From: Pantoea rwandensis
GTDB lineage: Bacteria > Pseudomonadota > Gammaproteobacteria > Enterobacterales > Enterobacteriaceae
Assembly: GCF_000759475.1 (NCBI RefSeq)
Contig: NZ_CP009454.1
Span: 1,612,001-1,676,000, forward strand
Direction of reading: 5' to 3'
Length of the DNA: 64,000 bases
The notes below the pieces were generated by a model, which was given only the letters and a program-made list of their open reading frames with translations, ran no database searches and had not been told where the DNA came from. Below, in pieces: positions 9,977 to 22,022 of this stretch (position 1 is its first letter; each line of letters opens with the position of its first letter). The position numbers were made by a program, and so were the translations under genes.

Positions 9977-10101
9977 GCGGCTTTATACCTTATTTATTAG
10001 GCTTTCCGCATCAAGAACATGGTGAGTTGCATGGGAAAAACCAAACAAGCATCGATAGTTGCAGAAGCCAGTTACATCATCCCATAAAACCACTGGCACA
10101 A

Positions 10102-10135
10102 AAAAGCCCGTAAGGCTTTCACCTTACGGGCTTTT
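10102..10135 (-). terminator. Displaced copy of the ssrA terminator
   Basis: A 14-bp stem (AAAAGCCCGTAAGG / CCTTACGGGCTTTT). The sequence from here to 10190 matches the stretch 21583-21680 next to the tmRNA 3' end (same terminator position, AGGACTT, CGGATGACTCTGG and ATTTTGGTGG). I read it as the host's original ssrA tail pushed away when the satellite integrated. Confidence 0.7.
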
Positions 10136-10173
10136 AGGACTTCATCGGATGACTCTGGTGTCACCGATGGAGA

Positions 10174-10200
10174 ATTTTGGTGGGCTGGCGGAGTCTGAAT
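10174..10200. mobile_element. attL of the satellite (degenerate ssrA 3' end)
   Basis: ATTTTGGTGGGCTGGCGG at 10174-10191 matches the tmRNA acceptor end at 21656-21675 except for single-base gaps, then similarity ends. On the minus strand it reads as the last bases of tmRNA including CCACCA. It marks the left junction of the element. Confidence 0.7.
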
Positions 10201-10253
10201 AAGTTTCGCAAGCTCATGAAATTAAGTGTTTTTCGCCAATTCAACTTTGTTCC

Positions 10254-10278
10254 GTGTACCTAAACGTGTACCAATTAT
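10254..10278. repeat. Left copy of the GTGTACC integrase arm-type repeat
   Basis: Two direct GTGTACC units 12 bases apart followed by AATTAT. The 25-base block is identical to 21518-21542 beside int. Placement near both ends of the element fits arm-type binding sites for the integrase; this is inference. Confidence 0.6.
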
Positions 10279-10731: not shown

Positions 10732-11382
10732 TTAAATCATCTTATTATTACGAAGTTCATTAAGGATTGAAAGATATCCATCACACATAAAATCAATAGC
10801 CACTTCAATATCGAGGACAGGAAAGTTACATTGTTTTCCAAAAACGGATTCAAATATAGTTCCAAGGCTACGCCCATGAGTATCAAAACTAGTGATTCTG
10901 TAAAGTGGATATAAATAAGCTAAGCTATTGTTTTGAGGATTCTTCAATTTTCCCAGCAAGCTTTTTACGTCAGGAAGTGTACTCGGTTTAGACGATTGCG
11001 GGTTTACGGTTTCTAACTGATTGCCGTATTTTTGCATGAAATTACTCCAAGCAGGATCTTGAAGATCATTGATTAACTTTCGGTACTGCTCCGAAAAAGT
11101 ATTTTTCTGCTCTTCATATCGAATAGCCATCTGTGACAAATCATCGAAGATATAGAGGTTGATAAAGAAAGGTTCTAACAATGAGCGAGATAAAACGTGT
11201 GTTAAGTATCTTTCATCAACAGTACAGCTTGTTGATAGATTGATGTTGATATTGAACATAGTACCAGTCAAAGAATAGAAGCGAAGGAGTTCTTGAATGA
11301 AGAAACCAGTCGCATCCGTTTTTTGAGTTAATGTTTTAATGTAAGTAATTTCAGATTTAAATGTGTTAAAACTTGCGCCCAT
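10732..11382 (-). CDS. Satellite cargo protein of unknown function, 216 residues
   Basis: An AT-rich gene at the left end of the satellite with a good ribosome site (AAGGAAAAATC before ATG). The product is soluble and mostly helical, with no signal peptide or membrane span. A central segment LSRSLLEPFFINLYIF and a later YRITSFDTHGRSLG recall the arginine/histidine pattern of DUF5677-type proteins, but this is a weak impression. Its base composition matches the nuclease/OLD pair rather than the alpha operon, so it is cargo. Satellite ends often carry phage-defence genes; no function is claimed. Confidence 0.6.
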   Translation of the reverse strand: MGASFNTFKSEITYIKTLTQKTDATGFFIQELLRFYSLTGTMFNININLSTSCTVDERYLTHVLSRSLLEPFFINLYIFDDLSQMAIRYEEQKNTFSEQYRKLINDLQDPAWSNFMQKYGNQLETVNPQSSKPSTLPDVKSLLGKLKNPQNNSLAYLYPLYRITSFDTHGRSLGTIFESVFGKQCNFPVLDIEVAIDFMCDGYLSILNELRNNKMI

Positions 11383-11673: not shown

Positions 11674-13989
11674 TTACCGATTACACACTGGCAACCAATC
11701 TGCCTCGCTGTCCTCATGTAACGTCAGGTTGGTTTGTATGCCGTTATTCGTCCGACGTTTGAGCAGCGCTCGCTCATACTCTTTAAGCGTCTGCGGCACC
11801 GCTTGGCCGAAAGCCGTCAGACTGAGCGGGTGTTGATGCCCTCGCGATTCCATAAACGACAAGTACGCATGATAGAGATAGCGCTTCGGGTTAATCGGGC
11901 GAATATTGGCGTTACCGATAAACAGCCCGTTCGGCGTGCTCAACGGCATCAGGTAGCCACAGAAATCAACCAGTGGATCGGCCTGACGTTTTATCTCCAA
12001 CGCTTCGCCGGATGTTTGCTGCGCCTGTAACAGCTCGCGCGCTTCGTCAGGTGACGCGAAGCGCTGCATCAGATGACGAACAATGACGGCCAGCTCGTTG
12101 CTAATTTTATCCAGTAGCTGCGGATCGCGCTCTTTTGCCGGTATCACCTCCGGGAAGGTTAGGATTACCCGGCGACGCGACACGCCGCCGCTGCGATCGC
12201 TGAAACGCATTGGATTATTGTTCACCGCCAGAATCACCGCCGGGATTTGAGTTGAGTACGGATCGCGATACTTGGGATCGATAGCGACAGCATCGCCGCC
12301 GGTGATTGCCTTAATGCCGGCGCCGTCACCGCTCCATTTCTCCTGATCGGGCAGAATAATCAGCGAGAATCCGACCACGCTGGCGCGTTCCCGCGATGAT
12401 TCCAGTGTGTCGATGGTGGCTGACGTGGTGTTATCGCGGCCAGCGAGCAGAGTGGCGATCGACGCTAAAACGCTTTTTCCGCTTCCACCTGGACCAGTTA
12501 CCTCCAGGAACATCTGCCAGTCGTAGCGGTTTGCCAGCACCATAAATAACGCCGCGAGGATGCGCTCCTGCTTGTCGTGATTGTGTCCGGCAGCCCGCGT
12601 TAACCAGCGGTAAAAGTGAGGCGCGTGGTCTGCGAGATTTTCGCCAGGACGCGGCGCGGAGTAGTTCACGCTGTTGACCGTGCGCAGCCAGTTCTCGCGG
12701 CGGTGCGGGCTGAATGTGCCGTTAGTCGTATCAAATACCCCATTACGAAAACCAATCAGGCGGCGCGCCGGTTCGCCCATCTGCGGCACCATCAGCTTTA
12801 GCGTATCGAGTACGCTACCAATCCCGGCTGCTGAAAACGGTGCGCGCACCTTCTGAAACAGCGCTGCGATTTCGCGGCGCAGCATCTGCACCGGCATCAC
12901 CTGCCACGCGCCGTTCTCGTAACGGCAAATTTCCTCCCCGACGGGTGGAACGGCCAGTGCCTGCCCGTAGTGATCGACCAGCAGCTCCGCCTTTTCGCTG
13001 GCGCTCATAGCTTTGAGGTCTGCCTCGCTTACTGACTCAAACGGGCTTGGTTTATGAGGCTGAGTGAAGGAGGCGAGAAGAGCCTGCGTCGTGATGTCGC
13101 CCTGAGCCTGCCAGACGTCGTTCCAGTCGCCGGTTTTTGGCGGTAAAGCAGCCTTGCCTTTGCACGCCTTCGCGGCTTCATCTGCCTTTAGTTGACCAGT
13201 GCCGTTTTCATCGCGATCGGCGGCAATCAGCATCAGCGCATCTGGATTGGCTTTACGCAGCTGTGCAGCAAGTGACGGCAGATTATTCGCGCTGAGCGCA
13301 ATATAAACCGGCTGCCCTGTTAGGCGCTGTACCGTCAGGCCGGTTGCGTAACCTTCTGTGAGCCACAGCGTTTTGCTGTCAGGTTCGCCCGCAAAGTGAT
13401 AAGCGCCTTTCACCTGTCCGCCGGGCAGGGTGCGCTTGTCGCCATCGGCGCTGATAAGCTGGACGTTAACGGCGTTGCCGGTTTCGTCGGTCAGCGGCAC
13501 AAGCAGATCGCCAGTCGCAAAGCTGATACCACCACAGCGCAGACCGGCAGCCAGCGTCAGTGCCTGCGTGCCGTGCAGCCCTTTTGACAGTAAGTAGGCG
13601 TTGTCCGTGCGTCTGACGGCAGCGGCGATCAGTTTCTGCGCCCGTGCGGCGGCATCGGATTGCGCTCCGGCATTTGTTTCTGTTTTCACCGGCACAACTT
13701 TTGATGCCGGTGGCAGAGCGCCGAGCATATCGGCGATTTTTAGTGCTGCCTCTTTAGCGCTGACGTCGAGCGCCTTTTCTACCAGATTCAGGCCGTCACC
13801 GGCTCCGCACTGATTACAGTGCCACGTCCCGCGCCCATCCTGATTATCAAAACGAAAACGATCTTTACCGCCGCACACCGGGCATGCGCCGTGTCTGCCG
13901 CTGGCATGAATGCTTATGCCAAGCGCGGGCAGCAGTTGCGGCCAGAATCCGGCGGCCGCTTTTACCGTGTCAGAGACAATGTGTTTCAT
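11674..13989 (-). CDS. P4 alpha-type primase-helicase
   Basis: A 771-residue replication protein combining primase and helicase as in phage P4 gpAlpha. The N-terminal zinc-binding domain is CPVCGGKDRFRF ... CNQC (about residues 37-70). A TOPRIM-like primase domain occupies the next 200 residues (LWLTEGYATGLTVQ, LIAADRDENGTGQ). A superfamily-3 helicase follows, with Walker A GPGGSGKS near residue 505 and Walker B-like LIILPDQEKW. The C-terminal domain should bind the origin iterons. It is the last gene of the leftward operon running from 15638. A GGGAG ribosome site precedes the ATG. Confidence 0.93.
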   Translation of the reverse strand: MKHIVSDTVKAAAGFWPQLLPALGISIHASGRHGACPVCGGKDRFRFDNQDGRGTWHCNQCGAGDGLNLVEKALDVSAKEAALKIADMLGALPPASKVVPVKTETNAGAQSDAAARAQKLIAAAVRRTDNAYLLSKGLHGTQALTLAAGLRCGGISFATGDLLVPLTDETGNAVNVQLISADGDKRTLPGGQVKGAYHFAGEPDSKTLWLTEGYATGLTVQRLTGQPVYIALSANNLPSLAAQLRKANPDALMLIAADRDENGTGQLKADEAAKACKGKAALPPKTGDWNDVWQAQGDITTQALLASFTQPHKPSPFESVSEADLKAMSASEKAELLVDHYGQALAVPPVGEEICRYENGAWQVMPVQMLRREIAALFQKVRAPFSAAGIGSVLDTLKLMVPQMGEPARRLIGFRNGVFDTTNGTFSPHRRENWLRTVNSVNYSAPRPGENLADHAPHFYRWLTRAAGHNHDKQERILAALFMVLANRYDWQMFLEVTGPGGSGKSVLASIATLLAGRDNTTSATIDTLESSRERASVVGFSLIILPDQEKWSGDGAGIKAITGGDAVAIDPKYRDPYSTQIPAVILAVNNNPMRFSDRSGGVSRRRVILTFPEVIPAKERDPQLLDKISNELAVIVRHLMQRFASPDEARELLQAQQTSGEALEIKRQADPLVDFCGYLMPLSTPNGLFIGNANIRPINPKRYLYHAYLSFMESRGHQHPLSLTAFGQAVPQTLKEYERALLKRRTNNGIQTNLTLHEDSEADWLPVCNR

Positions 13990-15638: not shown

Positions 15639-16177
15639 GGTGTTACCTCATAATGAGTCCGGCCGGTGCTGCCCGGTTCCGGGTGTGTCTTTGGGTAACT
15701 CCCTATTTTGAGAATATTTTACCTAATGTAAACAACCCCTTGCACGGTGGTGCTTGGCTGAGATATGAACAATAAATCTTCAGTTGGTTAATATAGGTAT
15801 ATATAGGTTTATGTAGGTATTTGGGCGTTTGCCGTGTGAGGTTTGATAACCAAAATCAATTGATTATCTCTAATCAACAAGAAAAAACTGTAGATTGGCT
15901 TGCCAGAAAAAGGCTGATTTTTTTTAGAGCAGTGAAGACTAGTGAACACTGAGTGAAGACTTAATCTATAACTGTTCACTGCTTTACTTACTGTATTTAC
16001 TATCTTTTTTATCTTAGTGAACAGTAGTGAATAGTTATATAAGAACTAAAAGTCGTTAAAGCATAAGTTAGGCAAGATTTCGGGTTTGTTTGCTGAGCGA
16101 CAGGCAGAAAGCAATGAAATGATTCGTCCGTTGGTACACGACAGAATGTGCTCATCCTTTACAGACGATGCGAGACA
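15639..16177. other. Satellite divergent control region and candidate replication origin
   Basis: A gene-free AT-rich stretch between the leftward early operon and the rightward psu-ogr operon. It holds three ATAGGT/GTAGGT direct repeats (15799-15824) and six AGTGAA-type units: 15931-15939, 15941-15949, 15952-15960, inverted at 15972-15980, 16016-16024 and 16026-16034. These resemble the GGTGAACAG iterons bound by P4 alpha protein. A TGT-N10-ACA dyad at 16087-16102 could be a late-activator site for the psu promoter, but the known P2/P4 spacing is 12, so this is tentative. Confidence 0.55.
15931..16034. repeat. Iteron-like AGTGAACA repeats (candidate ori)
   Basis: Six copies of AGTGAA(C/G/T)A(C/G), five direct and one inverted, within 104 bases, with a matching pair at 10361-10378. 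Alpha-type initiators recognise GGTGAACAG-like iterons. Confidence 0.55.
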
Positions 16178-16897
16178 ATGATGAGCACTACAGAAAATAA
16201 ACCTGCGTCACTGATTCGATTTGAAAAAGCGCGCGCCGAGCACACGGCAAAAATGACGACGTATAACACTGTCGCTGCTGACATCACCCGTTGCGAAAAA
16301 GAACGTCAGGAAGCTATTGAGGCGGGTAAAGAAGCTGAGAGCAACTGGCGTACTAATTTCCGAAAACTGCGCGGTAATCTCACTGAGGAACTTCGATCCG
16401 AACATTCGCAACGCATCGCCAGCCGCGAGTTGGCCGATGAATTTGCGGGATTGCTGAAAGAACTGCAATTGGATAAGCAGTCTGCCATGTTGAGCTGCTG
16501 CACCAGTGGTAAAGAGTACGTAGATTCACACAGCACTGCCTTCACTGAATTTGCGGATACACACTGGCAATCGGCGATGCGTAACGTAAGCCCTTCGTTG
16601 CTATGGGCGATCAAACTGCGCATCCAGCGTGAAAAAATTTCCTCAACCTTTGTCGGAGACGATCGCGACACTATTCGCGACATCGCCGCGCTTGTAGGGG
16701 AAGCTTTAACGCGGGCAGCGGCTGAATTACCTGAAAGTATTCTTCATGAAGCTCCATTACTGGAGTCCATCGGTGTTAGCCGTCCGGCGCTAACTGGCGT
16801 TGATATGGAACTGTATAGTTCACCTTCAAGCCGCAAAAGACTTTGTGCATCAATTCGTGAACAGCGTGCAAAACTGCAAGAGGGCAATCAGCCATGA
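16178..16897 (+). CDS. psu: Psu-like protein (phage polarity suppression family)
   Basis: A 239-residue, helix-rich protein (long charged helices at residues 10-90). Its end, SIGVSRPALTGVDMELYSSP then SRKRLCASIREQRAKLQ, aligns in kind with the end of P4 Psu (an IGFRP segment, then FSRKSAQLASRQ). P4 Psu decorates the small capsid and also inhibits the Rho factor. The protein is about 50 residues longer than P4 Psu (190). ATG at 16178 or 16181 fits; an in-frame GTG at 16148 is less likely. The stop overlaps the ogr start (ATGA), matching the paired psu/delta late genes of P4. Confidence 0.7.
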   Translation: MMSTTENKPASLIRFEKARAEHTAKMTTYNTVAADITRCEKERQEAIEAGKEAESNWRTNFRKLRGNLTEELRSEHSQRIASRELADEFAGLLKELQLDKQSAMLSCCTSGKEYVDSHSTAFTEFADTHWQSAMRNVSPSLLWAIKLRIQREKISSTFVGDDRDTIRDIAALVGEALTRAAAELPESILHEAPLLESIGVSRPALTGVDMELYSSPSSRKRLCASIREQRAKLQEGNQP

Positions 16898-17142
16898 TGC
16901 ATTGCCCTTACTGCAAAAGCCCGGCGCATGCAAAATCCAGCCGCTACATGTCCGAACAGGTAAAAGAGCGCTATCACCAATGCACTAATCTGGATTGCTC
17001 CTGCACTTTCAAGACGAATGAGAGCATTACTAGAGTCATCACCGCGCCACCGCCGGAACCCGTTGAGGAAGTCGTGCCGGTGCCGATTAAGGAACGGCAG
17101 ACGTTAGGCCGATACGGCTCAGCATTTCGTAATACTCATTAG
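16894..17142 (+). CDS. ogr: Ogr/Delta-family zinc-finger late activator
   Basis: An 82-residue activator with the P2 Ogr / P4 Delta signature: MHCPYCKSPAHAKSSRY then TKERYHQC-like KERYHQCTNLDCSCTF, giving the Cys-x2-Cys ... Cys-x4-Cys zinc site. These proteins bind TGT/ACA dyads about 55 bases upstream of P2/P4 late promoters and contact RNA polymerase alpha. Having one implies the satellite can turn on helper late genes and its own. Two ATGs are adjacent (16894, 16897); Ogr homologues start one residue before HCP. A terminator follows at once. Confidence 0.92.
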   Translation: MMHCPYCKSPAHAKSSRYMSEQVKERYHQCTNLDCSCTFKTNESITRVITAPPPEPVEEVVPVPIKERQTLGRYGSAFRNTH

Positions 17143-17150
17143 CCTTACAG

Positions 17151-17175
17151 CCGCTGCCCCGACAGCGGTTTTTTT
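17151..17175 (+). terminator. Terminator of the psu-ogr operon
   Basis: Stem CCGCTG / CAGCGG with loop CCCCGA, then seven Ts. Confidence 0.85.
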
Positions 17176-17508
17176 GTATCTGCAGTTCGCCGTTTGAAAG
17201 CCTTTTTTCTGGCAAGCCGGTTTGTAAAGAGCCATGCATGCATAGAGTGCATGGATTCGCATGCAAAATAATGCGTTAGTGGGATAGGTTCAAGCCATAC
17301 AGGGCGCGGCTTAGATGGCTTTATGCACCTGCATGAAAAGCGATGCATAAAGCGGGCAGGCGTGGCGGGGATAGCATTGCGCGCGATGAGGTTTTCAAGG
17401 TTTGAAACACCTTTACTAAGGTTCACTACAAATATGTGTATTTGAACTGCTATTGAAAAATTCTAAACATAAGTGTAATTAATCCTAATCAATACAAGGG
17501 AGATGGGA
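17176..17508. other. Gene-free region with cos and the promoter of the defence-like operon
   Basis: Dyads built on GCATGC/ATGCAT recur at 17233-17267 and 17325-17347, just before cos, as expected for terminase-binding (cosB-like) sequence. From about 17400 the sequence becomes AT-rich and leads into the cargo operon. No convincing -35/-10 pair was found. Confidence 0.4.
17359..17377 (+). other. P2/P4-type cos (cohesive end) site
   Basis: GGCGTGGCGGGGATAGCAT matches the P2/P4 19-base cohesive end as I remember it (GGCGAGGCGGGGAAAGCAC) at 16 of 19 positions, and the following TGCGCGC also agrees. Its place just after psu-ogr is as in P4. It is the site where a P2-type helper terminase would cut and package the element. 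Confidence 0.75.
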
Positions 17509-18579
17509 ATGGAAGAAGAAAGCGATTTAGATCGGCTAAACACTGAGTGGGTCACTGTAAATGCAATCCGAGGCATGGTGAAGCTAGCCACTAATAGTGA
17601 TATGGCTAAATCAACATATTCGAATATTTTGGACTTGGGGGGAGTTCTTTATCCGGAGTTGTTAGGGCCAGAAACAAGCATCTTAAGAAGAGAGTTTGAA
17701 AGTGATCTATGTAAGGAATATAGACAGAAATCACAGCTTTTGTCCCTTAGAAGAAACATTGAAGTTCCAGCAATAGATATTGTTAATACTGATATAGAAG
17801 AATTAAGAGGGTTACTTAGTCTAGCAACTAATAGTAGTAGGGTAGATCAATTAAAAAAACGGTTAATCCAACTCAATAATGTGAAAGATGAGTTAATTAT
17901 AAAGCCCCACACTGAGACGCAGCTTATTTTTAGAGATGCCTATAATGTGGACCGAGGAATAAAAAGTTTAGCTAGCAGTCAAGCAGCAAAAGACTTCCGC
18001 TTAACGGATGATAAAGCATTAAGATTGCGCGTTCTGCATCCAGAGCGACCAGAGCACATTACAGGGGCCGATATTATATATGAAAGGCATGATATAAAAA
18101 ATGAAAGAATAAGCATAGTTGCTGTTCAATATAAAATATGGGAGAACAGGAAATTACCTTTTACGGATGAACGAATGCTATCCCAAATTGATAAAATGAA
18201 AAAATTCCTTTGCGATAAAGATGCCTGCTGTGCAGGAGGTGGAGACCAACGCTACAGATTCCCTTTTTGTTCAGCATTCATTCGGCCAACCGATAAACTG
18301 CAAAAAGCAGACCAAAAGCTTATATCTTATGGTGAACATCTCCCGATATGTAGCATTCAGGACTGTTTAACATTAGGGCCAAAAGGTGGTGTTTTACTCG
18401 AATATGATTCATTTAAAGATGTTTCGTTGTCGAGTGAAATGTTTGAAGTTCTTTTTAATAGAGGAAAGATAGGCTCAAGATCGTTTAGCTATAATGAGAT
18501 TGAATTAATGTATGAGCAGGTGAAAGTTACCGACTATGGAGATCGTGTAATAATTTACGCGCAAGAAATAAATAATTGA
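17509..18579 (+). CDS. Putative nuclease (PD-(D/E)XK-like, QxK motif), partner of the OLD protein
   Basis: A 356-residue protein of no recognised family, first gene of the cargo operon. In the second half, GADIIYE (Asp188) is followed 18 residues later by VAVQYKIW (Gln207, Lys209) in predicted beta strands: the D-(x)n-QxK arrangement of Mrr-like restriction endonuclease folds. The first half is helical with a likely coiled coil (about residues 65-140). A Cys-rich patch (KDACCAGGGD) follows the motif. ATG at 17509 is chosen over 17503 because AAGGGAG then lies six bases upstream. Only 12 bases separate it from the OLD gene. The motif reading is inference; AT-rich codon use marks recent transfer. 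Confidence 0.6.
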   Translation: MEEESDLDRLNTEWVTVNAIRGMVKLATNSDMAKSTYSNILDLGGVLYPELLGPETSILRREFESDLCKEYRQKSQLLSLRRNIEVPAIDIVNTDIEELRGLLSLATNSSRVDQLKKRLIQLNNVKDELIIKPHTETQLIFRDAYNVDRGIKSLASSQAAKDFRLTDDKALRLRVLHPERPEHITGADIIYERHDIKNERISIVAVQYKIWENRKLPFTDERMLSQIDKMKKFLCDKDACCAGGGDQRYRFPFCSAFIRPTDKLQKADQKLISYGEHLPICSIQDCLTLGPKGGVLLEYDSFKDVSLSSEMFEVLFNRGKIGSRSFSYNEIELMYEQVKVTDYGDRVIIYAQEINN

Positions 18580-18591
18580 AAAGGAGTTGTT

Positions 18592-20247
18592 ATGAAACTT
18601 AATTCTCTAATTGTTAAGAACTTTAAGGGTATATCCTCAGAGACGAAAATATTAATTGATAATGTTGTAATCTTAATAGGTAGAAATAATTGCTGTAAGT
18701 CCACTATTTTAGATGCTTATGAAGCTTATCATTCAATTGGATCGGCAAGAAGTATTGATGATTTTCATAATCGTGATGAGAGTATCCCTATCGAAATTAC
18801 AGGCGTTTTTGTCGATATTACTCAGGATGATATCGATACGATTGGTAGAGAATGGCATATTGCGAATGATCCTGATTTTGGAGAATGTGCAAAATTCAAA
18901 ATTGTATGGAATAAAGCAGATGAATCAGGGAAAAAGTTTAGTTTTAGTAATAAAATTAACGATTGGAAGGAAGGGGGAGCCGGAGGGTGGAATACAATGC
19001 TGGCAAGTAGGCTACCAACTCCAATCAGAATAAATCCAAACGACTCACCTTCAACACTTGAACAGATTGTAAAAGACCTAATAGCATCAAACGCTCTAAA
19101 AAAAATAAAAGCCGATAAGTCTAAAGTCTCAAAGATATTAGGTGAAATACAGGCTTTAGCAAAAGAAATAGAAGTTGAGCTCGACGATAGTATTAAAGAA
19201 ATAAGTCAAGGTATTGAAGATAATGTTGAGCTAATGTTTAATGGTTTAAAAGTTAGGTTTGAAACTGGGGTGGGTAAATTTGAACCTGAAAAAGCTATAA
19301 AAGAAGGAAGCCGATTTTATTTTGAGACTAATGGAAATGGCTCACCTTTAACGCATCAAGGCTCAGGCGTTCAGCGCGCGTTTTTATGGGCGTCCATTAA
19401 AACGTTAAGTTCGCGTGGTATGCTAAAAAAAGGCAAGACTGCAATTTCATCTGAAAAGCCTAAAATACTTTTAATTGATGAGCCCGAAATGAATATGCAT
19501 CCATCTGTAATAAGATCGGTTAGTGAAGCTATTTATTCACTGTCAGAACTGCCAGAGTGGCAAATTTTATGCACTACACACTCGCCTATTTTTATCGATC
19601 TCACAAACCCGCACACCACACTTATTCGGGTCAGTAATGAAAATAATAAACTTGGTTATTTTCAAACTGATAAGGTTAGTTTTAGTGAGGTTGAAAAGGA
19701 TAATATAAAAACCTTGGTGAAATGCTGCCCTACCGTTAATGAGTTCTTCTTTTACGAGAATGCGTTTCTTGTCGAAGGAGATACTGAATTTTTAGCTTAT
19801 CAGCATTTGATTTCAGCTGAAAAATTGAATCACAAGTATTGTGTTATTAATTGTAGAGGTAAGGCAAACATACCAACTTTTATTAAAATATTTAATCAGT
19901 TTGAAGGTCGGGCAATAGCGGTACATGACTTAGATGAAAAATTTAATGATGGTGGTAAAAAGAACGCAATGTGGTCAATAAATTATAGTATACGTAAAGC
20001 CGCAGATGATACAAGTATGAGAGTTAAAACCTTAGTTCATTACCCTGACTTTGAGGGGTTTTATTTTGGCGAAAAACCAACAAAGGATAAGCCATATAAT
20101 CTTTTCAAACACATTACTAATAAGGACTATGATGTTGATGTAAAGTATGATTTATTCAGGAATTCTTTAAAAAGAATTGAAGATGGTACCCATTCAGGGC
20201 TTTATGATTCCGAAATGGACTTTAAAAAAAGATGGGATGATATTTAA
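18592..20247 (+). CDS. OLD-family ATPase-TOPRIM nuclease
   Basis: A 551-residue protein with an ABC/SMC-like ATPase and a C-terminal TOPRIM nuclease domain, the architecture of P2 Old and GajA. Seen in order: Walker A GRNNCCKST (residues 30-38), signature-like QGSGVQR (256-262), Walker B ILLIDEPEMN (Asp296, Glu297), switch histidine TTHSP (His330), TOPRIM VEGDTE (Glu395, Glu399) and the metal-binding DLD (Asp446, Asp448). Cys35 stands where a glycine normally precedes the Walker lysine. AAGGAG lies five bases before the ATG. The pair lies between cos and int, where P4-type satellites keep anti-phage genes, so a defence role is likely; no GajB-type helicase is beside it. Confidence 0.85.
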   Translation: MKLNSLIVKNFKGISSETKILIDNVVILIGRNNCCKSTILDAYEAYHSIGSARSIDDFHNRDESIPIEITGVFVDITQDDIDTIGREWHIANDPDFGECAKFKIVWNKADESGKKFSFSNKINDWKEGGAGGWNTMLASRLPTPIRINPNDSPSTLEQIVKDLIASNALKKIKADKSKVSKILGEIQALAKEIEVELDDSIKEISQGIEDNVELMFNGLKVRFETGVGKFEPEKAIKEGSRFYFETNGNGSPLTHQGSGVQRAFLWASIKTLSSRGMLKKGKTAISSEKPKILLIDEPEMNMHPSVIRSVSEAIYSLSELPEWQILCTTHSPIFIDLTNPHTTLIRVSNENNKLGYFQTDKVSFSEVEKDNIKTLVKCCPTVNEFFFYENAFLVEGDTEFLAYQHLISAEKLNHKYCVINCRGKANIPTFIKIFNQFEGRAIAVHDLDEKFNDGGKKNAMWSINYSIRKAADDTSMRVKTLVHYPDFEGFYFGEKPTKDKPYNLFKHITNKDYDVDVKYDLFRNSLKRIEDGTHSGLYDSEMDFKKRWDDI

Positions 20248-20273: not shown

Positions 20274-21467
20274 TTAAGGTTTGTTATATACTTTATTCCC
20301 CCACCACTCCATGAGTTCTTTTCTTTGATCTAAATATGTTGAGCGGTTATAAGCTCTGCGAACTTCATTTTTATCACTATGGGCTAATGCTGCTTCAATA
20401 ACATCAGGGTTGAAACCCGCCTCATTTAATGCGGTACTTGCAATCGACCGTAAGCCATGAGCAACAAGTTTTCCGCCGTAACCAATGCGCTTTAAGGCCG
20501 CATTTGCAGTTTGGCTATTCATTGGTTGCTTAGGATCGTTTCTGCTTGGAAAAACGTACTGTCGGTTAGCACTTATAGGACGCATAACCTCAAGAATCTC
20601 CAGAGCTTGTTTCGACAATGGAACGACATGTTCTCGCTTGGCCTTCATGCGATCAGCTGGAATAACCCAAAGTTTCATATCGAAGTCGATTTCCGCCCAT
20701 TGTGTGCCGGAGGCTTCTGCTGGTCTTACTAAGGTAAGAAGCTGCCACTCGATTAAACAGCGAGTGGCGACTGAGAGATTGGACATCACTAATGAGCGCA
20801 TCAGCTTGGGCAGTTCTTCCGGGCGTAATGTTGGCATGTTTTGTTTTTTTGGCTTTTCGAAAGCCATCCCGACACCAGAAGCTGGGTTTGCATCAATCAA
20901 ACCGGTGTTAACCGCATAAATCATGATCTCGTTGATGCGCTGCACTAAGCGGCGAACTGTCTCAAGCGCCCCGCGAGCTTTAATCGGCTCCAGTGCTTCA
21001 ACGATCGTTCTGGCTTTGAGTGTTTGAACAGGAATCTCACCAATAGAAGGGAATATGTCTTTCTCCAGCGATCGCCAAATATCCTTGGCGTAATCCTCAG
21101 TGACGCTTTTGCTTTTAAGCAGGAACCACCTCCCGGCCACAACCGAAAAAATGCTATCCAGCTCGATTTGGCGTTGCTCAGAAACTTCCTCTTGCTGCTT
21201 CTGCGGGTCGATCCCTTGTGCAAGCAGCGTCAAATATTGGTCACGCATTTGGCGTGCGACAGCGAGCGTTAGGGCAGGGTATGAACCAAGGCTGAGGTTT
21301 GTACGACTGCCGCTTTCTGGCCGCTGGTAGCGAAAACGCCACAGTTTTTTACCGGATGTTTTTACGAGCATGAAAAGCCCGTCGCCATCGTGCAGCGTGA
21401 AGTCCTTTTCTTGAGGCTTAGCTTTGAGGATTTCGTTGTTGGTGAGGGGGCGTGTCATCCGCGCCAT
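20274..21467 (-). CDS. P4-type tyrosine integrase
   Basis: A 397-residue site-specific recombinase. The N-terminal arm-binding domain of the P4/CP4-57 group is evident (KDFTLHDGDGLFMLVKTSGKKLWRFRY), then a core-binding helix bundle and the catalytic domain with Arg248 (LVRPAE), the His337-x-x-Arg340 box (HGLRS), LAHSDKNEVR and the AYNR tyrosine. It lies beside ssrA, its target. ATG at 21467 gives the usual N-terminus (MARMTRPL); an in-frame GTG at 21509 falls inside the repeats upstream and is not used. The gene points away from ssrA, and its promoter region carries the arm-type repeats, allowing autoregulation. Confidence 0.95.
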   Translation of the reverse strand: MARMTRPLTNNEILKAKPQEKDFTLHDGDGLFMLVKTSGKKLWRFRYQRPESGSRTNLSLGSYPALTLAVARQMRDQYLTLLAQGIDPQKQQEEVSEQRQIELDSIFSVVAGRWFLLKSKSVTEDYAKDIWRSLEKDIFPSIGEIPVQTLKARTIVEALEPIKARGALETVRRLVQRINEIMIYAVNTGLIDANPASGVGMAFEKPKKQNMPTLRPEELPKLMRSLVMSNLSVATRCLIEWQLLTLVRPAEASGTQWAEIDFDMKLWVIPADRMKAKREHVVPLSKQALEILEVMRPISANRQYVFPSRNDPKQPMNSQTANAALKRIGYGGKLVAHGLRSIASTALNEAGFNPDVIEAALAHSDKNEVRRAYNRSTYLDQRKELMEWWGNKVYNKP

Positions 21468-21485
21468 GACTGGTTTCCGTCCATA

Positions 21486-21542
21486 ATTGGTACACGTTTT
21501 TAGGTACACATTATAGCGTGTACCTAAACGTGTACCAATTAT
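21486..21542. repeat. Right arm-type repeats in the int promoter region
   Basis: Four GTGTACC units: two inverted (GGTACAC at 21489-21495 and 21503-21509) and two direct (21518-21524, 21530-21536). The direct block of 25 bases is identical to 10254-10278. Probable integrase arm sites overlapping the int promoter. Confidence 0.6.
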
Positions 21543-21582
21543 CTCTGGATTCAGGCGGATCGTCTCGGAAGATTACAGACAC

Positions 21583-21616
21583 AAAAAAGCCCGCAGGGCT
21601 TGTGCCGTGCGGGCTT
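21583..21616 (-). terminator. Terminator of ssrA
   Basis: Stem AGCCCGCAGGGC / GCCGTGCGGGCT (one mismatch) with a 4-base loop; on the minus strand followed by TTTTTT. The copy displaced by the satellite is at 10102-10135. Confidence 0.8.
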
Positions 21617-21655
21617 CTAGGACTTCTACGGATGACTCTGGAATCATCTTCGAAG

Positions 21656-21685
21656 GATTTTGGTGGAGCTGGCGGGAGTTGAACC
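21656..21685. mobile_element. attR of the satellite, inside the ssrA 3' end
   Basis: The tmRNA acceptor/T-arm end (TTTTGGTGGAGCTGGCGGG ...) restored by the element; matches attL at 10174-10191 apart from single-base gaps. The gene stays functional because the element supplies an intact 3' end. Confidence 0.7.
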
Positions 21686-22022
21686 CGCGTCCGAAATTAC
21701 TACACCGTCGGTACTACATGCTTAGTCAGTCTTTACATTCGCCGGCCAGCTGCGGACAGACACGCCACTGACAAACTAGCCTGATTAGATTTAGTGCTTC
21801 AACCCCAGGCAAGGCATCCACACGATCTCTTTTGGGTTTGACCTCTCTTGATCCCCGTCTTAAGAGCGGAAGCTAGGGAGAGAGGGCTCTTGGCAGGTTA
21901 TTAAGCTGCTAAAGCGTAGTTTTCGTCGTTTGCGACTATTTTTTTGCGGCTTTTAACGAGGCAAACCGCCCCTCGACATGCACCTAAGGCTTCACAATCC
22001 CGTCGAGTCCAGAATCAGCCCC
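21661..22022 (-). ncRNA. ssrA: tmRNA (ssrA)
   Basis: A 362-nt transfer-messenger RNA on the minus strand. The 5' end GGGGCTGATTCTGGACTCGA pairs with the 3' end ending in CCACCA to form the tRNA-like domain. The tag reading frame is visible about 90 bases in: after the resume codon GCA it encodes ANDENYALAA and stops, as in E. coli. With SmpB it rescues stalled ribosomes and tags the product for degradation. Its 3' end is the integration target of the satellite. Confidence 0.97.

Follow-up and report, generated by a model that had tools for sequence, protein, structure and literature searches.

Class 1 proteins of the OLD family are encoded by single genes without a helicase or retron partner (PMC10568477), and YbjD/OldB of Escherichia coli has been described as an isolated OLD gene with anti-phage phenotypes (PMC13261556). 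In the WonAB system (PD-T4-4), an OLD-type ABC ATPase is accompanied by a separate gene for a restriction-fold PD-(D/E)xK nuclease and both genes are required; WonB is a protein of 16.1 kDa, while the structure and domain composition of WonA are stated to set it apart from OLD, Gabija, PARIS and Septu (PMC12137116). The pairing of an OLD-type ATPase and a restriction-fold nuclease encoded by its own gene is therefore not new as a design, having been published with this system. Mrr-type (type IV) nucleases carry a D ... QxK active-site pattern (PMC12707154), and PD-(D/E)XK domains were present in 13 of the 31 systems validated for E. coli with DefensePredictor (PMC13092281). In this work, a two-gene locus of Pantoea rwandensis was analysed within a window of 64,000 nucleotides (contig NZ_CP009454.1, positions 1,612,001 to 1,676,000 of the forward strand), and all coordinates are those of the window. 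Gene A (forward strand, 17503..18579 in the list of open reading frames) and gene B (forward strand, 18592..20247) lie in a P4-type satellite at a position that is the P4 cargo site of PMC9122126. A first-pass annotation had proposed that the pair could be a new defence system. The evidence speaks for A and B as two independent defence genes rather than for a new two-gene system, and gene A is considered worth naming.

Comparison with described systems

By its gene content, B is an OLD-family protein of a class 1-like type in the scheme of PMC10568477. As in P2 Old and the OLD protein of T. scotoductus, an N-terminal ABC ATPase is combined with a C-terminal TOPRIM domain in about 550 amino acids (aa) with no adjoining helicase or retron, and P2 Old was 25.4% identical to B over 81%. 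B differed from the class 1 proteins by standing in an operon-like pair with A and by the Cys, Ser or Arg found in its subfamily at the second Gly of the P-loop. The neighbours of B were gene A, 12 bases upstream, and the integrase of the satellite, and neither gave a helicase or reverse transcriptase match in Pfam. B is a relative of GajA, but no UvrD-type helicase adjoined it, and neither A, B nor the integrase matched DUF4435, the AriB family of PARIS, at E ≤ 1. Gabija and PARIS were both rejected as identities of the locus, and the absence of GajB and AriB partners noted in the first-pass annotation was borne out.

Compared by description with WonAB, the locus differed in that B keeps a TOPRIM domain and that A is a protein of about 41 kDa (calculated from its length) which is often unpaired. 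The obligate WonAB (PD-T4-4) pair was rejected as an identity, A being unpaired in many loci. Gene A resembled the Mrr-type nucleases in being a single gene with a D ... QxK pattern that occurs in the company of restriction systems. Unlike these enzymes, A had no Pfam Mrr_cat match or recognised winged helix, carried a Cys cluster in its nuclease half and possessed a different N-terminal domain. The single PD-(D/E)XK systems of DefensePredictor were likened to A by domain type, and A-related DNA was found by blastn in 5 of 5426 E. coli genomes.

Gene A and its predicted active site

Gene A was listed as an open reading frame (ORF) of 358 aa beginning at 17503. The spacing of its putative ribosome-binding site, AAGGGAG (forward strand, 17496..17502), suits the ATG at 17509 better, and the latter was therefore taken as the more likely start, which gives the 356 residues assumed in the first-pass annotation. 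Residues are numbered here in the 358-aa form, in which D190 and K211 correspond to D188 and K209 of the 356-aa form. A total of 335 homologues were found at E ≤ 0.001. No Pfam family matched A at E ≤ 1 and neither NCBIfam nor PADLOC held a useful model; the first-pass annotation had recognised no family either. Membership of Mrr_cat (PF04471) was rejected on the same Pfam result.

The D-x18-QxK pattern already pointed out in A corresponded to D190 ... Q209-x-K211. These residues and E138 did not vary in any of 50 aligned sequences with identities down to 31%, nor in any of the 121 rows of a second alignment. Since none of the four varied in any aligned row, D-x18-QxK is not a chance pattern and a chance origin was dropped. 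The conserved D ... (D/E/Q)xK of the PD-(D/E)XK superfamily was thus present throughout the aligned A family. C237, C256 and C283 were also invariant across the alignments and are part of a cluster (C237, C242, C256 and C283, near H279) in which a structural zinc is probably bound. With AlphaFold 2 (AF2) models, the best fold-comparison matches of A were the Holliday-junction resolvases Hjc and RecU. Against the sequences of solved structures, the A sequence gave one match at E 0.43 and its profile gave none, and viral-protein structures gave no match at E ≤ 0.001. Gene A belongs to no classified family and probably encodes a nuclease of the PD-(D/E)XK type. A core of this type is predicted for A, and we infer nuclease activity, zinc binding, a trigger and a target for A, and independent action of A and B.

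At E ≤ 0.001, A was found in 3 of 369 genomes of the class including the window's own, and the other two were partial, weak matches to longer proteins. These two proteins (L034:1132-2475 and L033:913-2226) represent a large uncharacterised family, mostly of 427-470 aa, with 756 homologues and no Pfam family shown, which has an E/GxD/VQYK core and the C-terminal part in common with A and is without the Cys cluster. The L034 member is located near a gene that by eye is AbiEii-like. Literature searches covering OLD proteins, the cargo of P4 satellites, the prediction of defence systems and nuclease pairing yielded no title or displayed abstract that describes the A family, full texts being outside this scope and absence from print not being claimed. 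Three accessions of A homologues and one of a neighbour were also searched in papers and no mention was found.

Gene B

Gene B encodes 551 aa and is separated from A by a gap of 12 bases (forward strand, 18580..18591) that contains a putative ribosome-binding site, AAAGGAG. Pfam matches were obtained with AAA_15 (105.5 bits) and OLD-like_TOPRIM (PF20469; 47.9 bits, cut-off 23.2), and the best PADLOC model was Old with 258.6 bits, compared to 70.7 bits for the best GajA model. The Walker A, Walker B and H-loop of an OLD ABC ATPase and the EGxxE and DxD motifs of the C-terminal TOPRIM domain were all present, as the first reading of the sequence had indicated. Their residues (K36, E297 and H330 of the ATPase; E395, E399, D446 and D448 of the TOPRIM domain) were invariant in 18 of 18 aligned rows. 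A weak DUF2813 match of B (27.7 bits), a family which we take to be that of YbjD, and the description of YbjD/OldB were the basis on which B was likened to that protein.

Among 7995 scored candidates, 428 were homologues of B at E ≤ 0.001, with the best 95% identical and the closest relative among the matches listed in a Cedecea record. At residues 30-37 of B, the second Gly of the P-loop is replaced by Cys. Cys, Ser or Arg occupied this place in 114 of the 115 listed homologues with the motif, which was absent in five more, and ATP handling in this subfamily may therefore differ from that of other OLD proteins. At E ≤ 1e-60, B was found in 2 of 394 genomes of the order and 1 of 369 genomes of the class, with the window's own genome counted each time. 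No match to B was found in viral contigs. Relatives of B occurred in the phage and plasmid collections, where A had no match (tblastn, E ≤ 1e-5), and the context of those from a Rahnella plasmid and a Rhizobium phage contained no gene A. In a Rhizobium phage (L039:4001-5699), an OLD relative of B (38% identical) is divided between two ORFs, one for the ATPase and one for the TOPRIM part, which are annotated apart.

Neighbours of gene A in other genomes

A total of 31 A loci were compared, consisting of 27 of the 29 loci of a first set, the window (L030), L031, L036 and L037. Two loci of the first set were not counted: L021, whose gene is interrupted and whose satellite is of the L031 type, and L022, which is another contig from the L017 genome. 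L038 (same satellite as L036) and the entries H17 and H19 were also outside the census. Neighbours were called from ORFs of at least 60 aa within about 200 bases, which produced 37 proteins; the upstream HsdS of L037, which the automatic calls overlooked on account of the partial A match in that locus, was included manually to give 38.

A TOPRIM-bearing OLD gene directly adjoined A in two of the 31 loci, the window and L011, with opposite gene order. The OLD gene of L011 precedes A and ends 11 bases from its ATG, and A was followed by an OLD gene in the window only. L015 had an AriA/OLD-like ATPase without a Pfam TOPRIM match beside A, L023 had GajAB before A and L020 had PtuAB before A. Overall, a system of the OLD, AriA, GajAB or PtuAB type adjoined A on the same strand in 5/31 loci, the gaps ranging from 11 to about 121 bases. 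Other direct neighbours were a SIR2 gene (L007), type I restriction genes (L028 and L037) and Mrr_cat (L014), and at more than 200 bases from A were AIPR/AbiU (L003) and an NB-ARC-type ATPase (L025). No same-strand ORF of at least 100 aa was present within 200 bases of A in 11 loci (L003, L006, L009, L010, L012, L016, L025, L027, L029, L031 and L036), although contig ends cut L012 upstream and L031 downstream. A tree was built from 30 A copies, L019 being excluded as it is cut by a contig end. The five ATPase-adjacent rows were scattered over this tree and needed five changes, compared to a mean of 4.8 with shuffled labels, while its strongly supported branches alone forced just two. Conserved co-occurrence with OLD genes, whose absence the first-pass annotation had listed among the refuting results, was not found among the 31 loci, and the new two-gene system was dropped.

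A megablast search with A and B produced no result in E. coli genomes. Two unrelated loci share a 5'-nucleotidase gene next to A: in Photobacterium (L002:6866-7858) it lies upstream of A, and in E. coli A30 (L037:12437-13402) downstream.

Organisation of the satellite and a second cargo place

The satellite has a size of about 11.6 kilobases (kb) and lies at the 3' end of a transfer-messenger RNA (tmRNA) gene (reverse strand, 21661-22022), with direct repeats at both edges. Repeat comparison paired the distal attachment-end repeats (forward strand, 10076..10278; 108 nucleotides at 75% and 35 nucleotides at 89%) with the integrase-side repeats (forward strand, 21508..21666), which extend to the tmRNA 3' end. 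A cos-like site of the P2/P4 type (forward strand, 17359..17377) had three mismatches to a 19-base pattern; the chance expectation was 0.01 and a match was found in 1 of 100 shuffles. The tyrosine integrase (reverse strand, 20274..21509) was identified with Pfam, and these coordinates agree with the placement of the pair between cos site and integrase given earlier. The pair had also been described as AT-rich with a 12-base gap, and the GC (guanine plus cytosine) content was indeed 0.32-0.38 in the profile windows across A and B, against mostly 0.42-0.61 in the rest of the satellite; a stretch near 10.3-11.7 kb was equally AT-rich.

Upstream of A, an Ogr/Delta-like zinc-finger activator of the satellite (forward strand, 16894..17142) was identified with Pfam. 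It is preceded by a satellite gene from the ORF list (16148-16897) and followed by a terminator-like hairpin (forward strand, 17149..17170) that lies 3' of the activator gene and 5' of A. An alpha-type primase-helicase (reverse strand, 11674..13989) was named by eye from its length, motifs and synteny, and its relative gene order matched that of an annotated E. coli satellite. Several small ORFs are also present inside the satellite. An AT-rich ORF of 216 aa (reverse strand, 10732-11382), without a useful match in the family scans, is flanked on one side by the alpha primase and on the other by the distal attachment repeat, at the position that A takes in other satellites.

In the satellite of E. 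coli 63-2 (L036:11968-13041), A is found beyond the alpha primase, at a distance of 285 bases from it and inside the distal repeat. The psu-int slot of this satellite is occupied by genes for an AAA ATPase and an HNH protein. A viral contig of the Edwardsiella type (L031) has A at its end, behind what by eye resemble pieces of an alpha gene. Neither the E. coli nor the Edwardsiella-type satellite had an OLD gene with A. It follows from these two placements that A is mobile as its own unit. The second cargo place that it uses lies on the far side of the alpha primase, where a survey of psu-int such as PMC9122126 would be expected to miss it. In an Edwardsiella chromosome (L021:6601-8873), an opposite-strand ORF interrupts gene A, of which an intact copy is present in L031.

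Discussion

The anatomy of the locus, the conservation of both proteins, the defence-gene neighbourhoods of A and its unstable pairing were observed in this analysis. The explanation preferred with moderate confidence is that A and B are two separate anti-phage cargo genes placed in tandem in the cos-int slot of a P4-type satellite, where they are probably co-transcribed. Gene A would represent an undescribed single-gene nuclease family in which a helical domain at the N terminus (approximately residues 1-135) precedes a PD-(D/E)XK-like domain bearing a Mrr-type active site, E138 ... D190 ... Q209-x-K211. The protein would most likely be idle before infection, be switched on via the helical domain or by a feature of the phage nucleic acid, and would then cut nucleic acid like type IV (Mrr-like) enzymes or abortive-infection nucleases. 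B would be a class 1-like OLD nuclease acting alone, as P2 Old.

It is also conceivable, if rather unlikely, that A is a facultative add-on nuclease, with the adjoining ATPase (OLD, AriA-like, GajAB or PtuAB) sensing infection and switching A on so that two nuclease sites are deployed. The five loci with such a system directly beside A agree with this, and WonAB is an example of an OLD-type ATPase able to control a separate PD-(D/E)xK nuclease (PMC12137116). No system of this type was seen beside A-free control loci, 30 in number and carrying Mrr_cat (p 0.053), a control that is not well matched, being made of the 30 best Mrr_cat matches in a single class with neighbours within 1.5 kb and 25 of 41 matched families shown, and the excess at A is suggestive, not more. 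However, the gene order varied, with A first in the window and the ATPase system first in the other four, and the partners belonged to four different system types. In addition, L016 is the sister copy of L015 and has no ATPase neighbour, and the unpaired L036 copy retained all 12 key residues checked. A further reading, considered doubtful, is that A is a mobile plug-in, zinc-bearing PD-QxK nuclease that acts alone yet is repeatedly recruited, in either order, beside unrelated ABC-ATPase sensors (OLD, AriA-like, Gabija and Septu). If this was true, systems already equipped with a nuclease would gain another in A.

A role of A in satellite or island maintenance, such as junction resolution, was considered improbable. 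Its top structural matches are Holliday-junction resolvases, but a fold in common proves no function, and many kinds of defence genes adjoin A in unrelated bacteria. A dedicated new two-gene system formed by A and B is very improbable and largely refuted by the 31-locus count, since despite the common AT-rich block, the 12-base gap and the terminator-like hairpin ahead of both genes, the order A then OLD occurred in the window only, tblastn with B (E ≤ 1e-4) over L001-L029 yielded just two distant relatives, 22-23% identical, and relatives of B are found in records of phages and plasmids that contain no match to A.

With A and B regarded as two separate cargo genes, A names a family of hundreds of homologues with an invariant predicted active site that are now annotated as hypothetical, and it is a clear candidate for a single-gene defence. 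It also marks a second satellite cargo place, beyond the alpha primase, besides psu-int. The idea of a new two-gene system is corrected and leads to the question of whether lone nucleases borrow adjoining ATPase sensors.
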